64,000 nucleotides of DNA from Neotamlana sargassicola (GTDB taxonomy: Bacteria > Bacteroidota > Bacteroidia > Flavobacteriales > Flavobacteriaceae). The stretch spans positions 868,001 to 932,000 of the forward strand of contig NZ_JAJAPX010000001.1 in the NCBI RefSeq assembly GCF_020523965.1, read 5' to 3'. This document shows, one piece after another, positions 1,977 to 43,952 of this stretch (positions within the stretch are counted from its first letter, which is position 1; each line of letters opens with the position of its first letter). Both the position numbers and the translations under genes were made by a program. The notes below the pieces were generated by a model. The model did not search any database and was not told the origin of the DNA. It saw only the letters and a program-made list of their open reading frames with translations.

Positions 1977-4322
1977 ATGGCTAAAGCAAAAAAACAAGAA
2001 ACTGAATCGCAAGGATTCTCAAAATACATTCGTTGGTTTTGGTGGTTATTTTTAGGCGGTATTTTTTCGGTTATTTTTATTTTTTTATTAGCGTCATGGG
2101 GCGCTTTTGGCGATATGCCAGACCATACGGTTTTAGAAAATCCTAAAACCAAATTGGCTACCGAAATTATTTCTTCCGATGGTAAAACCCTTGGTAAATT
2201 TTATTTTGACGATAACCGCACACCGGTAGGGTTCGATCAATTGCCTCAAAATTTAGTTGATGCTTTAGTAGCTACCGAAGATGCTCGTTTTTTCAAACAT
2301 TCTGGTATCGATGCTCGTGGTACTTTACGAGCTATAGTAAAGTTAGGCGCTGGAGGTGGTGCAAGTACCATTTCTCAGCAGTTAGCCAAACAATTGTTTC
2401 ATGGCGAAGGTTCAAAAAACATAGTAGAGCGTGTATTACAAAAAGCCAAAGAATGGATTATTGCCATACGTTTAGAGCGCCAATACACCAAAGAAGAAAT
2501 TATAGCACAATATTTTAATATTTACGATTTTGGTAATAATGCCGATGGCATTCGCAGTGCATCCAGGATTTATTTTAATAAAGAACCAAATGAGCTCGAT
2601 TTAAAGGAATCGGCGATGTTGGTTGGAATGTTTAAAAATTCATCATTATACAATCCGCGACGAAATCCTGTTGGTGTAAAAAATCGTCGAAATGTGGTTT
2701 TAGCACAAATGAATAAGTACGATTTTATTGCTGAAACACTTAAAGATTCTTTACAAAATACCGAACTAGATTTAGACTATACGCCAGAAACACACAGCCA
2801 AGGAATCGCCACTTATTTCAGAGAATATCTTCGTGATTTTATGAAGCAGTGGATAAAAGACAATCCGAAACCTGATGGTGAAAACTGGAGTTTCAACGAC
2901 GGACTTAAAATTTACACCACCATCGATTCGCGTATGCAAAAACATGCCGAAGATGCCGTAGCACAACACATGCCAAGGCTACAAGCTGAGTTTTTTCATC
3001 AAAATACGCCAGACAGAAACCCAACCGCACCGTTTTTAGATTTAGAGGAAGATGAGATTACCGATCTAATGAATCGTTCAATGCGCCGATCGGAGCGTTG
3101 GAGACACATGAAATACGATTTAAAAAAATCGAATAAAGAGATAGAAGATTCATTTTACAAACCAACGCAAATGGAAGTTTTTGCTTGGGACAATGGTAAA
3201 CCAACCGAGATTGATACCATTATGAAGCCTATTGATTCTATGCGTTATTACAAATCGTTTTTACGTACAGGTATGATGTCTATGGATCCGCATACGGGTC
3301 ATGTAAAAGCTTGGGTTGGTGGTGTAAATTACAGACATTTTCAGTACGACATGGTAAAGCAAGGGAAACGCCAAATAGGTTCAACCTTTAAGCCTTTGGT
3401 GTATACAGCAGCTATCGATCAGTTACACTATTCACCATGCGATGAGTTTCCAGATGTGCCATATTGTATAGAAGCTAATAAATATGGAAATCCAGAAGAA
3501 TGGTGTCCAAAAAACTCGACGCCAGACTATGGTGGAACCCGATCATTAAAAAACGCCTTAGCAAATTCGGTAAATACAATTACCGCGCAGTTAATAGACA
3601 AAGTTGGTCCGCAAACCGTAGCCGATTTAGCTCAAAGACTTGGTATAGAATCCGATATTCCTGCAGTGCCATCAATTGCTTTAGGTACACCAGATATTAG
3701 TGTTTACGAAATGGTTGGTGCCTATTCTACGTTTGCAAACCAAGGTGTTTACACCAAACCAGTTATGGTAACCACAATTGAAGATAAAAACGGGACTATT
3801 TTATACCAATTTAAACCAGAAACACGCGATGTTTTAAGTGAAGAAACAGCGTATGTTACAGTTAAATTAATGCAAGGTGTTACCGAAGGTGGTTCGGGTA
3901 CACGTTTACGAACCGTAGGTTACGATAAGTGGCGTGCAGAATACAGAGAAGTTATTACAGGATATCCGTACCAATTTACAAACCCAATAGCTGGTAAAAC
4001 AGGTACTACGCAAAACCAAAGTGATGGTTGGTTTATGGGTATGGTTCCAAATTTAGTAACGGGTGTTTGGGTTGGTGCCGATGATAGAGCTGCGCATTTT
4101 AAAAGTATTACCTACGGGCAAGGCGCTACAATGGCTTTACCTATTTGGGGTGTTTATATGAAAAATTGTTACGCCGATACCGATTTAAATATCTCAAAAG
4201 AAGATTTTATTGCTCCAAAAGAGTTAACAATTAACATTGATTGCTCCGTTAAAGATGATAACGATAATGCTTCAGATGATACTCCAAATACCGATGAAAC
4301 TTTAGATGATTTGGATTTTTAA
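1977..4322 (+). CDS. Penicillin-binding protein 1A (bifunctional transglycosylase/transpeptidase)
   Basis: 781 aa. It polymerises and cross-links peptidoglycan at the outer face of the inner membrane. Visible: one N-terminal membrane helix (about residues 18-42); a GT51 transglycosylase domain with ATEDARFFKHSGID and GASTISQQLAKQLF; a transpeptidase domain with SxxK at S469 (GSTFKP), an SVN motif (ANSVNTITA) and KTGT near residue 674. The C-terminus is an acidic Asp/Asn tail. Class A PBP length is normal. The stop codon lies in a TTAA tetranucleotide that also supplies the stop of the convergent acetoacetate-CoA ligase gene. No terminator is visible at the junction. Confidence 0.95.
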   Translation: MAKAKKQETESQGFSKYIRWFWWLFLGGIFSVIFIFLLASWGAFGDMPDHTVLENPKTKLATEIISSDGKTLGKFYFDDNRTPVGFDQLPQNLVDALVATEDARFFKHSGIDARGTLRAIVKLGAGGGASTISQQLAKQLFHGEGSKNIVERVLQKAKEWIIAIRLERQYTKEEIIAQYFNIYDFGNNADGIRSASRIYFNKEPNELDLKESAMLVGMFKNSSLYNPRRNPVGVKNRRNVVLAQMNKYDFIAETLKDSLQNTELDLDYTPETHSQGIATYFREYLRDFMKQWIKDNPKPDGENWSFNDGLKIYTTIDSRMQKHAEDAVAQHMPRLQAEFFHQNTPDRNPTAPFLDLEEDEITDLMNRSMRRSERWRHMKYDLKKSNKEIEDSFYKPTQMEVFAWDNGKPTEIDTIMKPIDSMRYYKSFLRTGMMSMDPHTGHVKAWVGGVNYRHFQYDMVKQGKRQIGSTFKPLVYTAAIDQLHYSPCDEFPDVPYCIEANKYGNPEEWCPKNSTPDYGGTRSLKNALANSVNTITAQLIDKVGPQTVADLAQRLGIESDIPAVPSIALGTPDISVYEMVGAYSTFANQGVYTKPVMVTTIEDKNGTILYQFKPETRDVLSEETAYVTVKLMQGVTEGGSGTRLRTVGYDKWRAEYREVITGYPYQFTNPIAGKTGTTQNQSDGWFMGMVPNLVTGVWVGADDRAAHFKSITYGQGATMALPIWGVYMKNCYADTDLNISKEDFIAPKELTINIDCSVKDDNDNASDDTPNTDETLDDLDF

Positions 4323-35737: not shown

Positions 35738-35825
35738 GTTACCGCGCTTTGGGCGCGGTCGGGCTTTACATTTTATCTTTTTCTCGTAACCTCAAAAAAG
35801 GATGCCATTTCAATCCCTAACGCAG
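35738..35825. repeat. GC-rich hairpin and decayed repeat after hemJ
   Basis: The stem CCGCGC-TTTGG-GCGCGG (35742-35758) is followed by TCGGGCTTTACATTTTATC and then, further on, by CAATCCCTAACGC. The GC-rich patch stands out in this AT-rich genome, and GTTAC/GTAAC at its ends form an outer inverted pair. It may double as the terminator of the heme operon, but its shape and the ending resemble an interspersed flavobacterial repeat (from memory, unchecked). The rest of the gap to 35933 holds the promoter of the kinase gene. Confidence 0.5.
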
Positions 35826-35890
35826 CAAACAACAGTGCATAAAACCAAATAATTATTAAAATAGCCAATAGGGTTTAAATAAGCTTTAAC

Positions 35891-40556: not shown

Positions 40557-41147
40557 TTAAATATTTTGAGTAAATATTTTACCTTCAGATTTAAAAACTA
40601 ACTTGTAGTGTTTGTTTCCTAATCCTTCTAACTTATAAGCTTTTTGAATGTTTCTTTTGTGGTCAATATTATCAGAGTAAACTAAGTCTGAATTTACATC
40701 GTAAATATTTACTTCTAAAGGAGCTTCGTTTAAAGATAATTTTGAAACGTAAACTACGCCATTTTCTAATCTTGCGTATGGCTTGTAAGTAATAGTTTTG
40801 TCTTCATTTTTGAAATTAACTTCACTAGAAATTACAGAGAAAGGCATAGTATCAATTTCTAAATCTTTTTCTAATTCTACTGTATAATTTCCATCAGGTA
40901 GCGATGTAAAATCGAATGCTTTTTGGTAGTTACCAGTTTCAGCAATTACTTCTTTATATAAAATAACACCGTTAGCATCAGTAATAGTTAACTTGTTACC
41001 TTGTTTAACACTTTGTAAACTGATTACGGTTTTTTTAGCGTTTTTAGTAAAAGTTACATTAGCAGACTCATTTGCGAAACTTAACAAGGTAGCAAACATT
41101 GTTACCATTAAGAATCCTTTTTTTGTGTTTTTAATTACGTTTTTCAT
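40557..41147 (-). CDS. Secreted tandem-repeat protein, paralogue 1 of 3 (unknown family)
   Basis: 196 aa. Signal peptide MKNVIKNTKKGFLMVTMFAT ending LLSFA. The mature protein has two similar halves: residues about 50-110 (LTITDANGVILYKEVI, YQKAFDFTSLPDGNYTVELE) and about 140-196 (EVNIYDVNSDLVYSDNI, IQKAYKLEGLGNKHYKLVF), each like the beta-sandwich of T9SS C-terminal sorting domains. It shares the same start, length and layout with the two genes to its right. A -7 box ends 28 nt upstream. Function unknown; no cargo domain. Confidence 0.8.
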   Translation of the reverse strand: MKNVIKNTKKGFLMVTMFATLLSFANESANVTFTKNAKKTVISLQSVKQGNKLTITDANGVILYKEVIAETGNYQKAFDFTSLPDGNYTVELEKDLEIDTMPFSVISSEVNFKNEDKTITYKPYARLENGVVYVSKLSLNEAPLEVNIYDVNSDLVYSDNIDHKRNIQKAYKLEGLGNKHYKLVFKSEGKIFTQNI

Positions 41148-41175
41148 AATATGTTGTTTTTAACTTTCAACATTT

Positions 41176-41183
41176 CAAAGATA
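41176..41183 (-). promoter_or_regulatory. -7 box of paralogue 1
   Basis: TATCTTTG on the minus strand. Blocks GATATTAAT (41211-41219), TATGCT (41227-41232) and GGTGTTAAT (41255-41263) follow at the same offsets (35, 51 and 79 nt) as in paralogues 2 and 3. Confidence 0.65.
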
Positions 41184-41738
41184 AGGCGCTAATAGCTCCT
41201 GGAAAACAATGATATTAATTGATAATTATGCTATTTTAACTAGAAAATTGACTAGGTGTTAATATGGCATAGTTTCGGATTAAATGAGTATAAAATCGAT
41301 GAAATGCATAGTTTTTTTAATGACATTTTTATCAATTAAGAATATAATTTGAGGTTAATTTTAAGACGTTAAATAGTTAAATTATGATTGTTTTTTAAAC
41401 GGAAGAAAGATGCACTAGTTAAAATTAGTTCTGCGGACGATAACTTAATAAAATACCAAAAGGTTTACATTAATTGTGTATTACTTATTGGTAGTAAAAA
41501 AATAAGTGCTAGTTGTATAAACAATAACTGTAAATAATATATCTTAGAATTATTTGATTAAGCTCTGCAGGATTTATAATTTTAAATGAAAAGATAGGAG
41601 GAAGCTGTTGTAGTAATTAACTGTTCTAAAAAAAAACAATTAAAGCTTTTATTATTTTTTAGAATAATTAAAAGCAGTTGTCTGGGAGATGTAAAAGCAG
41701 GGGTGAAGGTGGTATTGGGTAGTTATGGTTAAAACAAA
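41184..41738. other. Long intergenic region between paralogues 1 and 2
   Basis: The first about 120 nt (to about 41310) match the upstream regions of paralogues 2 and 3 and are probably regulatory. The remainder, to the terminator of paralogue 2, has no coding frame I can support. An AT-only inverted repeat (TTCTAAAAAA at 41624-41633, TTTTTTAGAA at 41655-41664) is the only other structure. Confidence 0.5.
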
Positions 41739-41769
41739 AAAGCGAATCATCTATAAAATGATCCGCTTT
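41739..41769 (-). terminator. Terminator of paralogue 2
   Basis: AAAGCG-A-ATCAT (41739-41750) pairs with ATGAT-C-CGCTTT (41758-41769), one mismatch, 7-nt loop. It lies 27 nt past the stop of paralogue 2 and is followed on the minus strand by a T-run. Confidence 0.75.
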
Positions 41770-41796
41770 CTTAATAAAATCAAGAAAATAAAGGGA

Positions 41797-42390
41797 TTAA
41801 ATTTGTTCTGTAAAGGTTTTACCTTCGGTTGTAAAAACAAATTTGTAACTACCTTCACCTAAACCAGAAAGCTTGTATGCTTTTTGTATGTTTTTGGTGT
41901 TTTCAATACTTTCAGAAAAAACTAGGTTAGAATCTTCACCATAATAAATTTCAACTTTTAAAGGTGATTTGTTTAATGAAAGCTTTGAAACAAATACTAC
42001 ACCGTTTTCAACACGTAAAAAAGGTTTGTAAGTTATTTTCTCACTAGCTTTATGAAACACGACTTGGTTGTCTGTTACGGTAAAAGGCATTGTGTCGATT
42101 TCTAAATCTTTTTCTAATTCAAAAACATACTCACCATCAGGAAGTGCAGTTAAATCGAAAGCTTTCTGGTAGTTACCAGTTTTAGCAATAACTTCTTTAT
42201 ATAATACAACACCATTAGCGTCAATAATGGTTAATAGGTTTCCTTCTTTTACACTATCTAAAGTTAAGATAGTTTTCTTAGCATCTTTAACAATAATTAA
42301 ATTTGCAGGCTCTGTTGCGAAACTTAACAAGGTAGCAAACATTGTTACCATTAAGAATCCTTTTTTTGTGTTTTTAATTACGTTTTTCAT
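41797..42390 (-). CDS. Secreted tandem-repeat protein, paralogue 2 of 3 (unknown family)
   Basis: 197 aa. Same signal peptide as paralogue 1 over its first 22 residues and the same two-part mature layout: LTIIDANGVVLYKEVI, YQKAFDLTALPDGEYVFELE, then KVEIYYGEDSNLVFSESI, IQKAYKLSGLGEGSYKFVF. It is much more like paralogue 1 than paralogue 3 in the first half. No hydrophobic anchor besides the signal. Flanked by its own promoter (42419-42426) and terminator, so it is a single-gene unit. Confidence 0.8.
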   Translation of the reverse strand: MKNVIKNTKKGFLMVTMFATLLSFATEPANLIIVKDAKKTILTLDSVKEGNLLTIIDANGVVLYKEVIAKTGNYQKAFDLTALPDGEYVFELEKDLEIDTMPFTVTDNQVVFHKASEKITYKPFLRVENGVVFVSKLSLNKSPLKVEIYYGEDSNLVFSESIENTKNIQKAYKLSGLGEGSYKFVFTTEGKTFTEQI

Positions 42391-42418
42391 GATTTGGTGT
42401 TATTAACGTTCAACACTA

Positions 42419-42426
42419 CAAATTTA
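42419..42426 (-). promoter_or_regulatory. -7 box of paralogue 2
   Basis: TAAATTTG on the minus strand, 28 nt before the ATG. GATATTAAT (42454-42462), TATGCT (42470-42475) and GGTGTTAAT (42498-42506) stand at the shared offsets of 35, 51 and 79 nt. Confidence 0.65.
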
Positions 42427-42703
42427 CAGCAAGAATTAAAGGTGTAAAACATTGATATTAATTTGTTTATATGCTAAATTACCCAATAAATTAGGTAGGT
42501 GTTAATATAGCAACACAACAGGTTAAATGAATACAAAAGCCAGCAAAATGCGTTTTTTTAAATCTATTAAATTAAAGAATTTCTAATTGTGTTTTAGTTT
42601 AAAACTATATATAGATGTATTACATAATAGAATTAAAAAACACAGTTAATTTTATTTTTTAATAAAAGTAGTTTAAGTATGTGCTAATTAATTATAAGCA
42701 ACT
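42427..42703. other. Intergenic region between paralogues 2 and 3
   Basis: About the first 120 nt carry the upstream blocks shared by all three paralogues. From about 42550 to the terminator of paralogue 3 I see no gene, repeat or clear site. Confidence 0.5.
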
Positions 42704-42734
42704 AAAAAAGGGCTGCAATTTGCAGCCCTTTTTT
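42704..42734. terminator. Terminator of paralogue 3
   Basis: AAAAAAGGGCTGCA (42704-42717), loop ATT, TGCAGCCCTTTTTT (42721-42734): a perfect 14-bp stem with T-runs on both strands, 20 nt past the stop of paralogue 3. Confidence 0.9.
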
Positions 42735-42753
42735 AATTTAAATTTATGGAGAG

Positions 42754-43353
42754 TTATATGGTCTTGGTAAATGTTTTACCGTTTGTGGTAAAAACAAATT
42801 TATAGTTAACGTTACTTGAACTTTTTAATTTAAATACGCGCTCAATAAGCTCGGTGTTTTCAATAGTTTCTTTGTGTATAAGCTCGAACGATCCTTCAGA
42901 GCCAGAAAAAACTTCAATTTTTAGTGGAGACTTGTCTAATGATAATTTATTGATAAAAACTAAATCTTTTGAAGTACGAACAATAGGCTTATAAATAACA
43001 GTCTCTAAATTATTATTAAAAACAACTTCTTCATTGTTTACTTTAAAAGGTATGCTAGAAACTTCTACGTCTTTATTCAATTCAAAAACATATTCTCCGT
43101 TTGGAAGTTCGGAAAAATCGAATGCTTTTTGATAATTTCCAGTTTCGGTAATTTCTTCTTTATATAGAACAACACCATTTTTATCTGTAATGGTTAATAT
43201 GTTTCCCTCTTTAACACTTTCGAAAGTTAAGATGGTACTTTTTGCAGTTTTAGTAACAGTTAAGTTAGCAGGCTCGTTAGCGAAACTTATTAAGGTAGTA
43301 AACATGGTTACTATTAATAATGCTTTTTTTGTGTTTTTAATTACGTTTTTCAT
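42754..43353 (-). CDS. Secreted tandem-repeat protein, paralogue 3 of 3 (unknown family)
   Basis: 199 aa. Same signal start (MKNVIKNTKKALLIVTMFTT) and plan as the other two, but the more diverged member: LTITDKNGVVLYKEEI, YQKAFDFSELPNGEYVFELN, then KIEVFSGSEGSFELIHKETI, and a C-terminus ending NYKFVFTTNGKTFTKTI. The short IxTMPF-type segment seen in 1 and 2 is SSIPF here. Own promoter at 43382-43389 and a strong terminator. Function unknown. Confidence 0.8.
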   Translation of the reverse strand: MKNVIKNTKKALLIVTMFTTLISFANEPANLTVTKTAKSTILTFESVKEGNILTITDKNGVVLYKEEITETGNYQKAFDFSELPNGEYVFELNKDVEVSSIPFKVNNEEVVFNNNLETVIYKPIVRTSKDLVFINKLSLDKSPLKIEVFSGSEGSFELIHKETIENTELIERVFKLKSSSNVNYKFVFTTNGKTFTKTI

Positions 43354-43381
43354 GATTTGGTGTTATTAACGTTCAACACTA

Positions 43382-43389
43382 CAAAGTTA
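43382..43389 (-). promoter_or_regulatory. -7 box of paralogue 3
   Basis: TAACTTTG on the minus strand, 28 nt before the ATG. GATATTAAT (43417-43425), TATGCT (43433-43438) and GGTGTTAAT (43461-43469) stand at the shared offsets. Confidence 0.65.
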
Positions 43390-43597
43390 GGGTTCGTGTT
43401 AAAGGTGCAAAACATTGATATTAATGGGTTTGTATGCTAAATTACCAGAGAAATGCTAAGGGTGTTAATTTGGTACAACTACGTGTTAAAAGACTATAAA
43501 ATAGGTTAAAATGTAATTTTGATTAACCATTTTTTCAATTTGTAAAAGAAGTTAGGTTTTAAAATTGATTTAAGTGAAAAATAAATTTTAAATAAAA

Positions 43598-43624
43598 AAA
43601 AGTGAGCCACCACAGCTCACTTTT
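43598..43624 (-). terminator. Terminator of the 28-codon mini-gene
   Basis: AAAAGTGAGC (43598-43607), 7-nt loop, GCTCACTTTT (43615-43624); on the minus strand it is followed by a run of T. No annotated gene except the 28-codon frame at 43672-43758 ends here. Confidence 0.8.
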
Positions 43625-43671
43625 ACCAACTAAACTAAATAAGACATTAAACTAATTATTAATGAATATTG

Positions 43672-43758
43672 TCACTCTGTTAGAGTATATGTTTTATCGC
43701 TTACTATTTTAATTAACTTAAAAAGATCTACCACCAAAATTTTTAAGCTATTTAACAT
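43672..43758 (-). CDS. Possible 28-aa mini-protein (or small RNA) with its own promoter and terminator
   Basis: ATG at 43758, TGA at 43672-43674. The peptide begins MLNSLKILVVDLFKLIKIVS, a hydrophobic/basic helix of the kind seen in small membrane peptides, and ends with TLTE. A -7 box TATATTTG lies at 43800-43807 and the hairpin at 43598-43624 ends the unit, giving a transcript of roughly 190-200 nt. Peptide versus regulatory RNA cannot be decided from sequence alone. Confidence 0.45.
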   Translation of the reverse strand: MLNSLKILVVDLFKLIKIVSDKTYTLTE

Positions 43759-43799
43759 TAAAATGATATCGATAATATATTTAATAATGTTTAACACTT

Positions 43800-43807
43800 C
43801 AAATATA
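43800..43807 (-). promoter_or_regulatory. -7 box of the 28-codon mini-gene
   Basis: TATATTTG on the minus strand; a TTG at the -33 side occurs at 16 or 23 nt spacing (43824-43826, 43831-43833). It cannot belong to any larger gene in this orientation. Confidence 0.5.
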
Positions 43808-43952
43808 CGTTGCTATGGCGTTACAAAAAACAATAAAATTAACGCGATTATATGTTATTTTATCTGGCTTATTAAATTGTGTTAATTTAGTATAGTTTTA
43901 TGCAAATATGCTTTGTTTTGGCTAGGTTTAGTTTTTTTAGTGCGTATAATTA

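Follow-up and report, generated by a model that had tools for sequence, protein, structure and literature searches.

A phase-locked promoter common to predicted exported DUF3244 proteins and candidate small RNAs of Flavobacteriaceae, with an AraC-family protein as its likely controller

The window analyzed here is a stretch of 64,000 nt of the Neotamlana sargassicola genome (Flavobacteriaceae; contig NZ_JAJAPX010000001.1, positions 868,001 to 932,000), in which three tandem genes for predicted exported DUF3244 proteins each lie behind a copy of the same precisely spaced upstream blocks. These blocks are probably the operator and the promoter of a small regulon under an AraC-family regulator, whose outputs would be the secreted DUF3244 proteins and small RNAs (sRNAs) derived from the tails of their mRNAs. 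A preliminary description of this stretch had recognized three promoter copies but missed a fourth one at 43865-43800, with a putative transcript lacking an open reading frame (ORF) downstream. The genes and promoter elements of the window are the following.

40557..41147, minus strand: DUF3244 exported protein, copy 1, 196 aa (ORF; PF11589 34.6 bits, above cut-off)
41176..41241, minus strand: promoter of copy 1, with core box, TGTTTT (-33) and TATCTTTG (-7) (model R1 E=1e-8)
41255..41269, plus strand: distal inverted core copy of copy 1, GGTGTTAATATGGCA (sequence; spacing classes)
41797..42390, minus strand: DUF3244 exported protein, copy 2, 197 aa (ORF; PF11589 26.0 bits, above cut-off; AF2 model pLDDT 82)
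42419..42484, minus strand: promoter of copy 2, with core GGTAATTTAGCATATAA, TGTTTT (-33) and TAAATTTG (-7) (model R1 E=4e-10)
42498..42512, plus strand: distal inverted core copy of copy 2, GGTGTTAATATAGCA (sequence; spacing classes)
42754..43353, minus strand: DUF3244 exported protein, copy 3, 199 aa (ORF; PF11589 23.4 bits, just under cut-off; aligns with copies 1 and 2)
43382..43447, minus strand: promoter of copy 3 (model R1 E=2e-9)
43461..43475, plus strand: distal inverted core copy of copy 3, GGTGTTAATTTGGTA (sequence; spacing classes)
43800..43865, minus strand: fourth promoter, before the putative ORF-less transcript, with core GATAAAATAACATATAA and -7 box TATATTTG (model R1 E=7e-7; sequence)

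The three upstream regions align with each other, and the spacing first described is exact in all of them. In detail, the -7 boxes (TAnnTTTG; 41176-41183, 42419-42426, and 43382-43389, minus strand) stand 28 nt from the ATG of their genes (41147, 42390, and 43353, minus strand), whereas GATATTAAT, TATGCT, and GGTGTTAAT start 35, 51, and 79 nt beyond the start of the box. The GGTGTTAAT block holds its position but is not a separate box, being part of TATGCTATATTAAC, which is an inverted copy of the core GTTAAAATAGCATATAA. A genome-wide pattern search found the same block order nowhere else in the genome. The sequence-only promoter model trained on related DUF3244 genes (model R1) returned six genomic sites with E values from 4e-10 to 1e-6, the next-best being 0.006; three of them precede the DUF3244 genes, one the ORF-less unit of the window, and two are placed beside an AraC gene. 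The absence of the block order elsewhere and the gap behind the six sites show that the phase-locked blocks are not due to chance. Each of the three DUF3244 genes is followed by a terminator of its own, which bears out the initial view that each gene forms a transcription unit behind its own duplicate of the promoter.

The blocks and their spacing were also found in other flavobacterial genomes, as the preliminary description had suggested looking for: the upstream regions of 119 out of 120 related DUF3244 genes of Flavobacteriaceae align without gaps. The sampled genomes are related to each other, and the counts given throughout do not represent independent events. The consensus of the 119 promoters is G-W-TAA-WW-TAGCA-Y-ATAAATTnGnCAA-n-ATYGATGTTTT, followed by 19 nt, TAnnTTTG, and then TAGTGTTgAACGTTAA, with base frequencies in the -7 box of 0.99 for TA, 0.99 for TTT, and 0.96 for G. 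The distance from the core to the -7 box, two elements defined independently, is 57 nt in all scorable cases (76/76). On the contrary, the start of the -7 box lies 33-69 nt from the ATG among the related genes, so that the core-to-box distance is fixed across the family and the 28 nt between box and ATG vary outside the window. Three tandem copies on their own could resemble each other merely through recent gene duplication, and the first 30 codons are nearly the same in the three genes. Such an origin of the likeness is hardly credible and already contradicted, as the spacing is the same in the 119 genes, whose proteins go down to 24-30% identity. The gap-free conservation across the family argues instead for constraint on the promoter.

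The TAnnTTTG box and the short leader without Shine-Dalgarno sequence are common to these promoters and to the flavobacterial sigma-A promoters (PMC9723704), from which they differ by TGTTTT or GTAGTAGTG at -33 and by the fixed activator core 57 bp upstream. The distal inverted core is found at distances from the core that fall into classes of 33, 44, 54, and 65 bp, which would correspond to steps of about one helical turn; the window copies belong to the shortest class.

When the ORFs of 60 DUF3244 flanking regions were clustered, a single regulator emerged: 58 of the 60 loci encode an AraC-family protein of 295 aa. Its C-terminal domain with two helix-turn-helix (HTH) motifs matches PF12833 (HTH_18, 78.9 bits) and PF00165 (HTH_AraC, 55 bits) above cut-off, and its N-terminal ligand-binding/cupin part matches PF02311 and PF07883 weakly, both at 17.0 bits and below their cut-offs. 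Among 299 genomes, 156 contain both DUF3244 and the AraC gene, 4 only DUF3244, 25 only AraC, and 114 neither (Fisher p=1e-51). The promoter diverges from the AraC gene in all distinct copies examined (108/108), and since in 97 of these the core and the AraC gene's own TAnnTTTG are 92-94 bp apart, the whole divergent control region is rigid. The linkage of promoter and AraC persists where AraC and DUF3244 are apart (this genome, G158, and G017) and even where a typical DUF3244 is absent (G009 and G111). In N. sargassicola, the regulator is 36 kb from the DUF3244 cluster, with two further promoter copies alongside:

G000:C10:947724-948608, this genome, outside the window: AraC-family gene (profile match)

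Downstream of 116 AraC-linked promoters there are 62 DUF3244 genes, 47 ORF-less units with a conserved 3′ module, and seven other units, at least two of which (L099 and L272) also look ORF-less and have a related tail. The AraC-family protein is thus, by these genomic associations, the likely controller of the DUF3244 promoter, and the shared activator or sigma contact surface originally invoked for the kept spacing gains a strong candidate. With about 12 bp between them, TAGCA and GnCAA would be well placed for the pair of HTH motifs in an AraC-type monomer. Similarly to AraC/XylS regulators, the system combines HTH_18 and HTH_AraC, a divergent gene, inverted half-sites, and helical-turn spacing; it differs in the weakly recognized ligand-binding domain and in targets which include an sRNA family together with exported DUF3244 proteins. 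A literature search for Tamlana with the AraC family found no paper.

Another regulator, for instance an OmpR/PhoP-type response regulator acting on TTAACA repeats spaced by 11 bp, with AraC as a neighbor or modulator, is considered unlikely. Between the distal box and the core, TTAAC is repeated 6, 17, and 28 bp upstream of the core, and an 11-bp spacing is typical for direct repeats of the OmpR family. These repeats, however, which would form a "Pho box", vary and have almost disappeared from the window copies, whereas the core is kept. Moreover, the promoter stays by the AraC gene after the latter has left the DUF3244 cluster, and the 60 flanking regions include no response-regulator gene among the conserved neighbors.

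The second output would be the ORF-less units, of which this genome has three, sR1 to sR3. Their ends were inferred from the flavobacterial rule that transcription starts 5 nt downstream of the -7 box (PMC9723704) and from the T-run.

43594..43795, minus strand: candidate sRNA sR1, ~200 nt (start inferred 5 nt past the -7 box, end at the T-run)
43593..43668, minus strand: conserved 3′ module of sR1, with terminator hairpin GTGAGC-TGTGGTG-GCTCAC and T-run (sequence)
about G000:C10:948806-949009, outside the window: sR2 (sequence)
about G000:C10:949196-949393, outside the window: sR3 (sequence)

These ~200-nt units have no convincing ORF and a common 70-nt end, ATTCATTAATAATTAGTTTAATGTCTTATTTAGTTTAGTTGGTAAAAGTGAGCTGTGGTGGCTCACTTTTTTT. 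In a search of Rfam 15, sR1 to sR3 gave no match above the gathering score; elsewhere in the window the only match is Flavo-1 (RF01705, 49.4 bits, 35753-35831, minus strand). A remnant of the 3′ module without its own promoter follows directly after sR2 (G000:C10:949007-949032). In the predicted folds of sR1 and sR3 (window 43795-43594 and L155 4197-4394, respectively), the 5′ leader GUUAAACAUUAUUAA pairs with UUAAUAAUUAGUUUAAUG of the 3′ module, and therefore the ends of the RNA may close on each other.

ORF-less units with the same promoter recur in many other loci. A pattern for the sRNA end located 76 stretches in named genomes, all from Flavobacteriaceae or loosely placed Bacteroidetes bins, and the genera concerned are Tamlana, Algibacter, Mariniflexile, Seonamhaeicola, Hyunsoonleella, Aestuariibaculum, Aestuariivivens, Confluentibacter, Flaviramulus, Jejuia, Gaetbulibacter, and Marixanthotalea. 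Over this dozen of genera the 3′ module is near-invariant, with AATGTCTTATTTAG intact in 110 of 116 distinct copies. The terminator stem covaries in the 116 copies: GTGAGC/GCTCAC occurs in 58, GTGGGC/GCCCAC in 53, and GCGGGC/GCCCGC in 4, with one G-U pair and no mismatch, although the search pattern permitted mismatches. The hairpin at the coding-sequence (CDS) end of the sRNA has a stem of at least five pairs in 88 of 112 copies, compared with 45 on average after mononucleotide shuffling, an excess which is only suggestive because many copies lie in coding sequence.

The origin of the RNA units is indicated by the sister genera. In 56 of their DUF3244 genes, the module consists of the last codons (...KFINN-stop), the 3′ untranslated region (3′UTR), and the terminator, and is placed at or just after the stop codon; in L086, a broken, decayed DUF3244 frame lies ahead of the module. 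The ORF-less transcripts, overall about 150-270 nt, join the DUF3244 promoter and leader to the last codons, 3′UTR, and terminator of a DUF3244 mRNA. In view of the 56 tails and the L086 intermediate, the RNA units look like DUF3244 genes minus their middle. The DUF3244 genes of N. sargassicola end in terminators other than this one, and only sR1 to sR3 still carry the tail sequence.

If so, the units could be nonfunctional leftovers of tandem duplication, that is, dead DUF3244 copies whose promoter and terminator are kept by gene conversion. The broken frame of L086 agrees with this, as do the tandem copies in Tamlana nanhaiensis, where one contig (L246) has six sRNA ends inside 2 kb. Nevertheless, AATGTCTTATTTAG hardly varies from genus to genus, a distance over which gene conversion cannot operate, the stem changes are compensated, and an ORF-less unit occupies the AraC-divergent position in 47 of the 116 loci, all of which makes decay without function very improbable.

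A second possibility is that the units are mRNAs of very short peptides (17-28 aa, e.g., MFSDLKKLVVDFFKSIK) and not regulatory RNAs. Amphipathic micro-ORFs do occur in the Tamlana copies, and a longer ORF exists in L268, L075, and L091. Yet the frame shifts between close copies, where the GTGGTAG segment stays and the arms change in step (AACAC/GTGTT, AATAC/GTATT; by eye), so that close relatives have a GUGGUAG loop on stems changing on both sides. The part conserved across genera is the 3′ module, downstream of any ORF, and a peptide function seems rather unlikely on these grounds.

The micro-ORFs, whose frame is not kept in every copy, are located at 43672-43758 (minus strand) in the window (MLNSLKILVVDLFKLIK..) and at about 4233-4286 (plus strand) in L155 (MFSDLKKLVVDFFKSIK). 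The longer ORF is a conserved short frame (..YWKYYTLYDVYHVNP..IVYTN..W) in promoter units at L268 1565, L075 4321 (+), and L091 3379 (+), and lies ahead of the sRNA 3′ module in L075 and L091; a Pfam search with the L268 protein gave no match. In sister genera, the same promoter also precedes proteins of 33-51 aa with a single membrane span (..PIITGVLLLWFK..; L277 483, L083 2432(+), L085 2443(+), L094 1964(-), L269 1473, and L274 37).

The proteins of the cluster had been regarded as an unrecognized family, which is incorrect, as they belong to DUF3244 (PF11589, gathering cut-off 25 bits). Copy 2 has 68% identity to copy 1, and copy 3 has 52%. The architecture is a signal-like N-terminus followed by two DUF3244-type immunoglobulin (Ig)-like domains. 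A model from 58 sequences (AF2, predicted local distance difference test, pLDDT, 82) replaced a poor one from three sequences (pLDDT 64). Its best fold match is the DUF3244 protein 3d33 (VIA Z 9.7, root-mean-square deviation 2.5, 79 residues), followed by 4g5a (Z 8.5), both on the second domain; the remaining matches at Z 8-9 are general Ig/FN3 folds. A PDB sequence search gave nothing significant, and 3d33 came from the fold comparison alone. The window proteins share the Ig-like beta-sandwich of 3d33 (Bacteroides vulgatus BVU_0276) and 4g5a (B. thetaiotaomicron BT_1867), but they have two tandem domains instead of one and are tandem paralogues under an AraC-linked operator. Judged from the N-terminus alone, they may be exported and have an envelope-directed role. 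Cargo of the type IX secretion system was rejected, since the sorting tail TIGR04183 scored 19.3 bits against a cut-off of 23 and matched residues 40-94, not the C-terminus. DUF3244 relatives exist in 160 of the 299 sampled Flavobacteriaceae genomes, with one to seven copies each. A literature search for DUF3244 together with Flavobacteri- found no paper; two passages naming DUF3244 are rows in a table of B. thetaiotaomicron iron-response genes.

The closest working analogy, with no homology claimed, is cpxP/CpxQ of enterobacteria, where a small exported protein and a 3′UTR sRNA come from a single transcript and a single promoter (PMC4817254). As in CpxQ, the RNA has its 3′ end and terminator in common with an mRNA, here in the 56 DUF3244 genes of sister genera. 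On the other hand, the 3′UTR module is also found alone behind its own promoter copies and is gone from the protein genes of this genome. The Rfp sRNAs of Flavobacterium psychrophilum, such as Rfp18, have a median of 176 bp, are in some cases structured and conserved (PMC9723704), and resemble sR1 to sR3 in length.

In the regulon proposed here, a signal would act on AraC, whose most likely binding site is the core GWTAAWWTAGCAYATAAATTnGnCAA, immediately before the -33/-7 region. There it would activate, rather than repress, as a class II activator touching the sigma-A RNA polymerase at a fixed distance, and this contact would account for the constant distance of 57 bp to TAnnTTTG. A second AraC molecule may sit on the inverted distal copy, whole helical turns away and facing AraC's own promoter, and so tie the control of the regulon to that promoter. 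The DUF3244 genes and the sRNA would be turned on together, giving one to seven tandem exported proteins with two Ig-like domains each, and ORF-less transcripts. The latter are most simply small regulatory RNAs from DUF3244 copies that lost their reading frame, and they perhaps act through their GUGGU loops.

Several points weigh against this scheme. The AraC linkage is an association, and the core could serve a different activator. The AraC-linked promoters were called with the same model that had been trained on DUF3244 promoters, with the 47 ORF-less cases outside the training set. The 25 genomes with an AraC match but no DUF3244 include many low-scoring matches, which may be paralogues. 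The core box of copy 1 is partly degraded (GCATAATTA), and in divergent genera the -33 part GATGTTTT is replaced by GTAGTAGTG, with the core retained. The micro-ORFs make a peptide product of the Tamlana RNAs possible, and one pattern search of this genome for an antisense target of the conserved tail gave only the sRNA genes and one remnant. Finally, the transcripts, their 5′ ends, and the DNA binding are predictions from sequence comparison.

Concerning evolution, it is a matter of even chances that a dual-output mRNA, whose CDS end and 3′UTR contained a functional RNA, was split. Frame-less copies would have turned into independent sRNA genes, amplified and still controlled by the same AraC operator, and the protein genes of some lineages, as here, would have lost the RNA part, with intermediates still kept in sister genera.

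This analysis proposes, for the exported DUF3244 proteins of Flavobacteriaceae, a compact regulon with a candidate regulator and a precisely defined operator, and it describes a conserved family of candidate sRNAs absent from Rfam. The sister genomes also show a putative route from the tail of an mRNA to independent sRNA genes, a question mostly argued from single cases.

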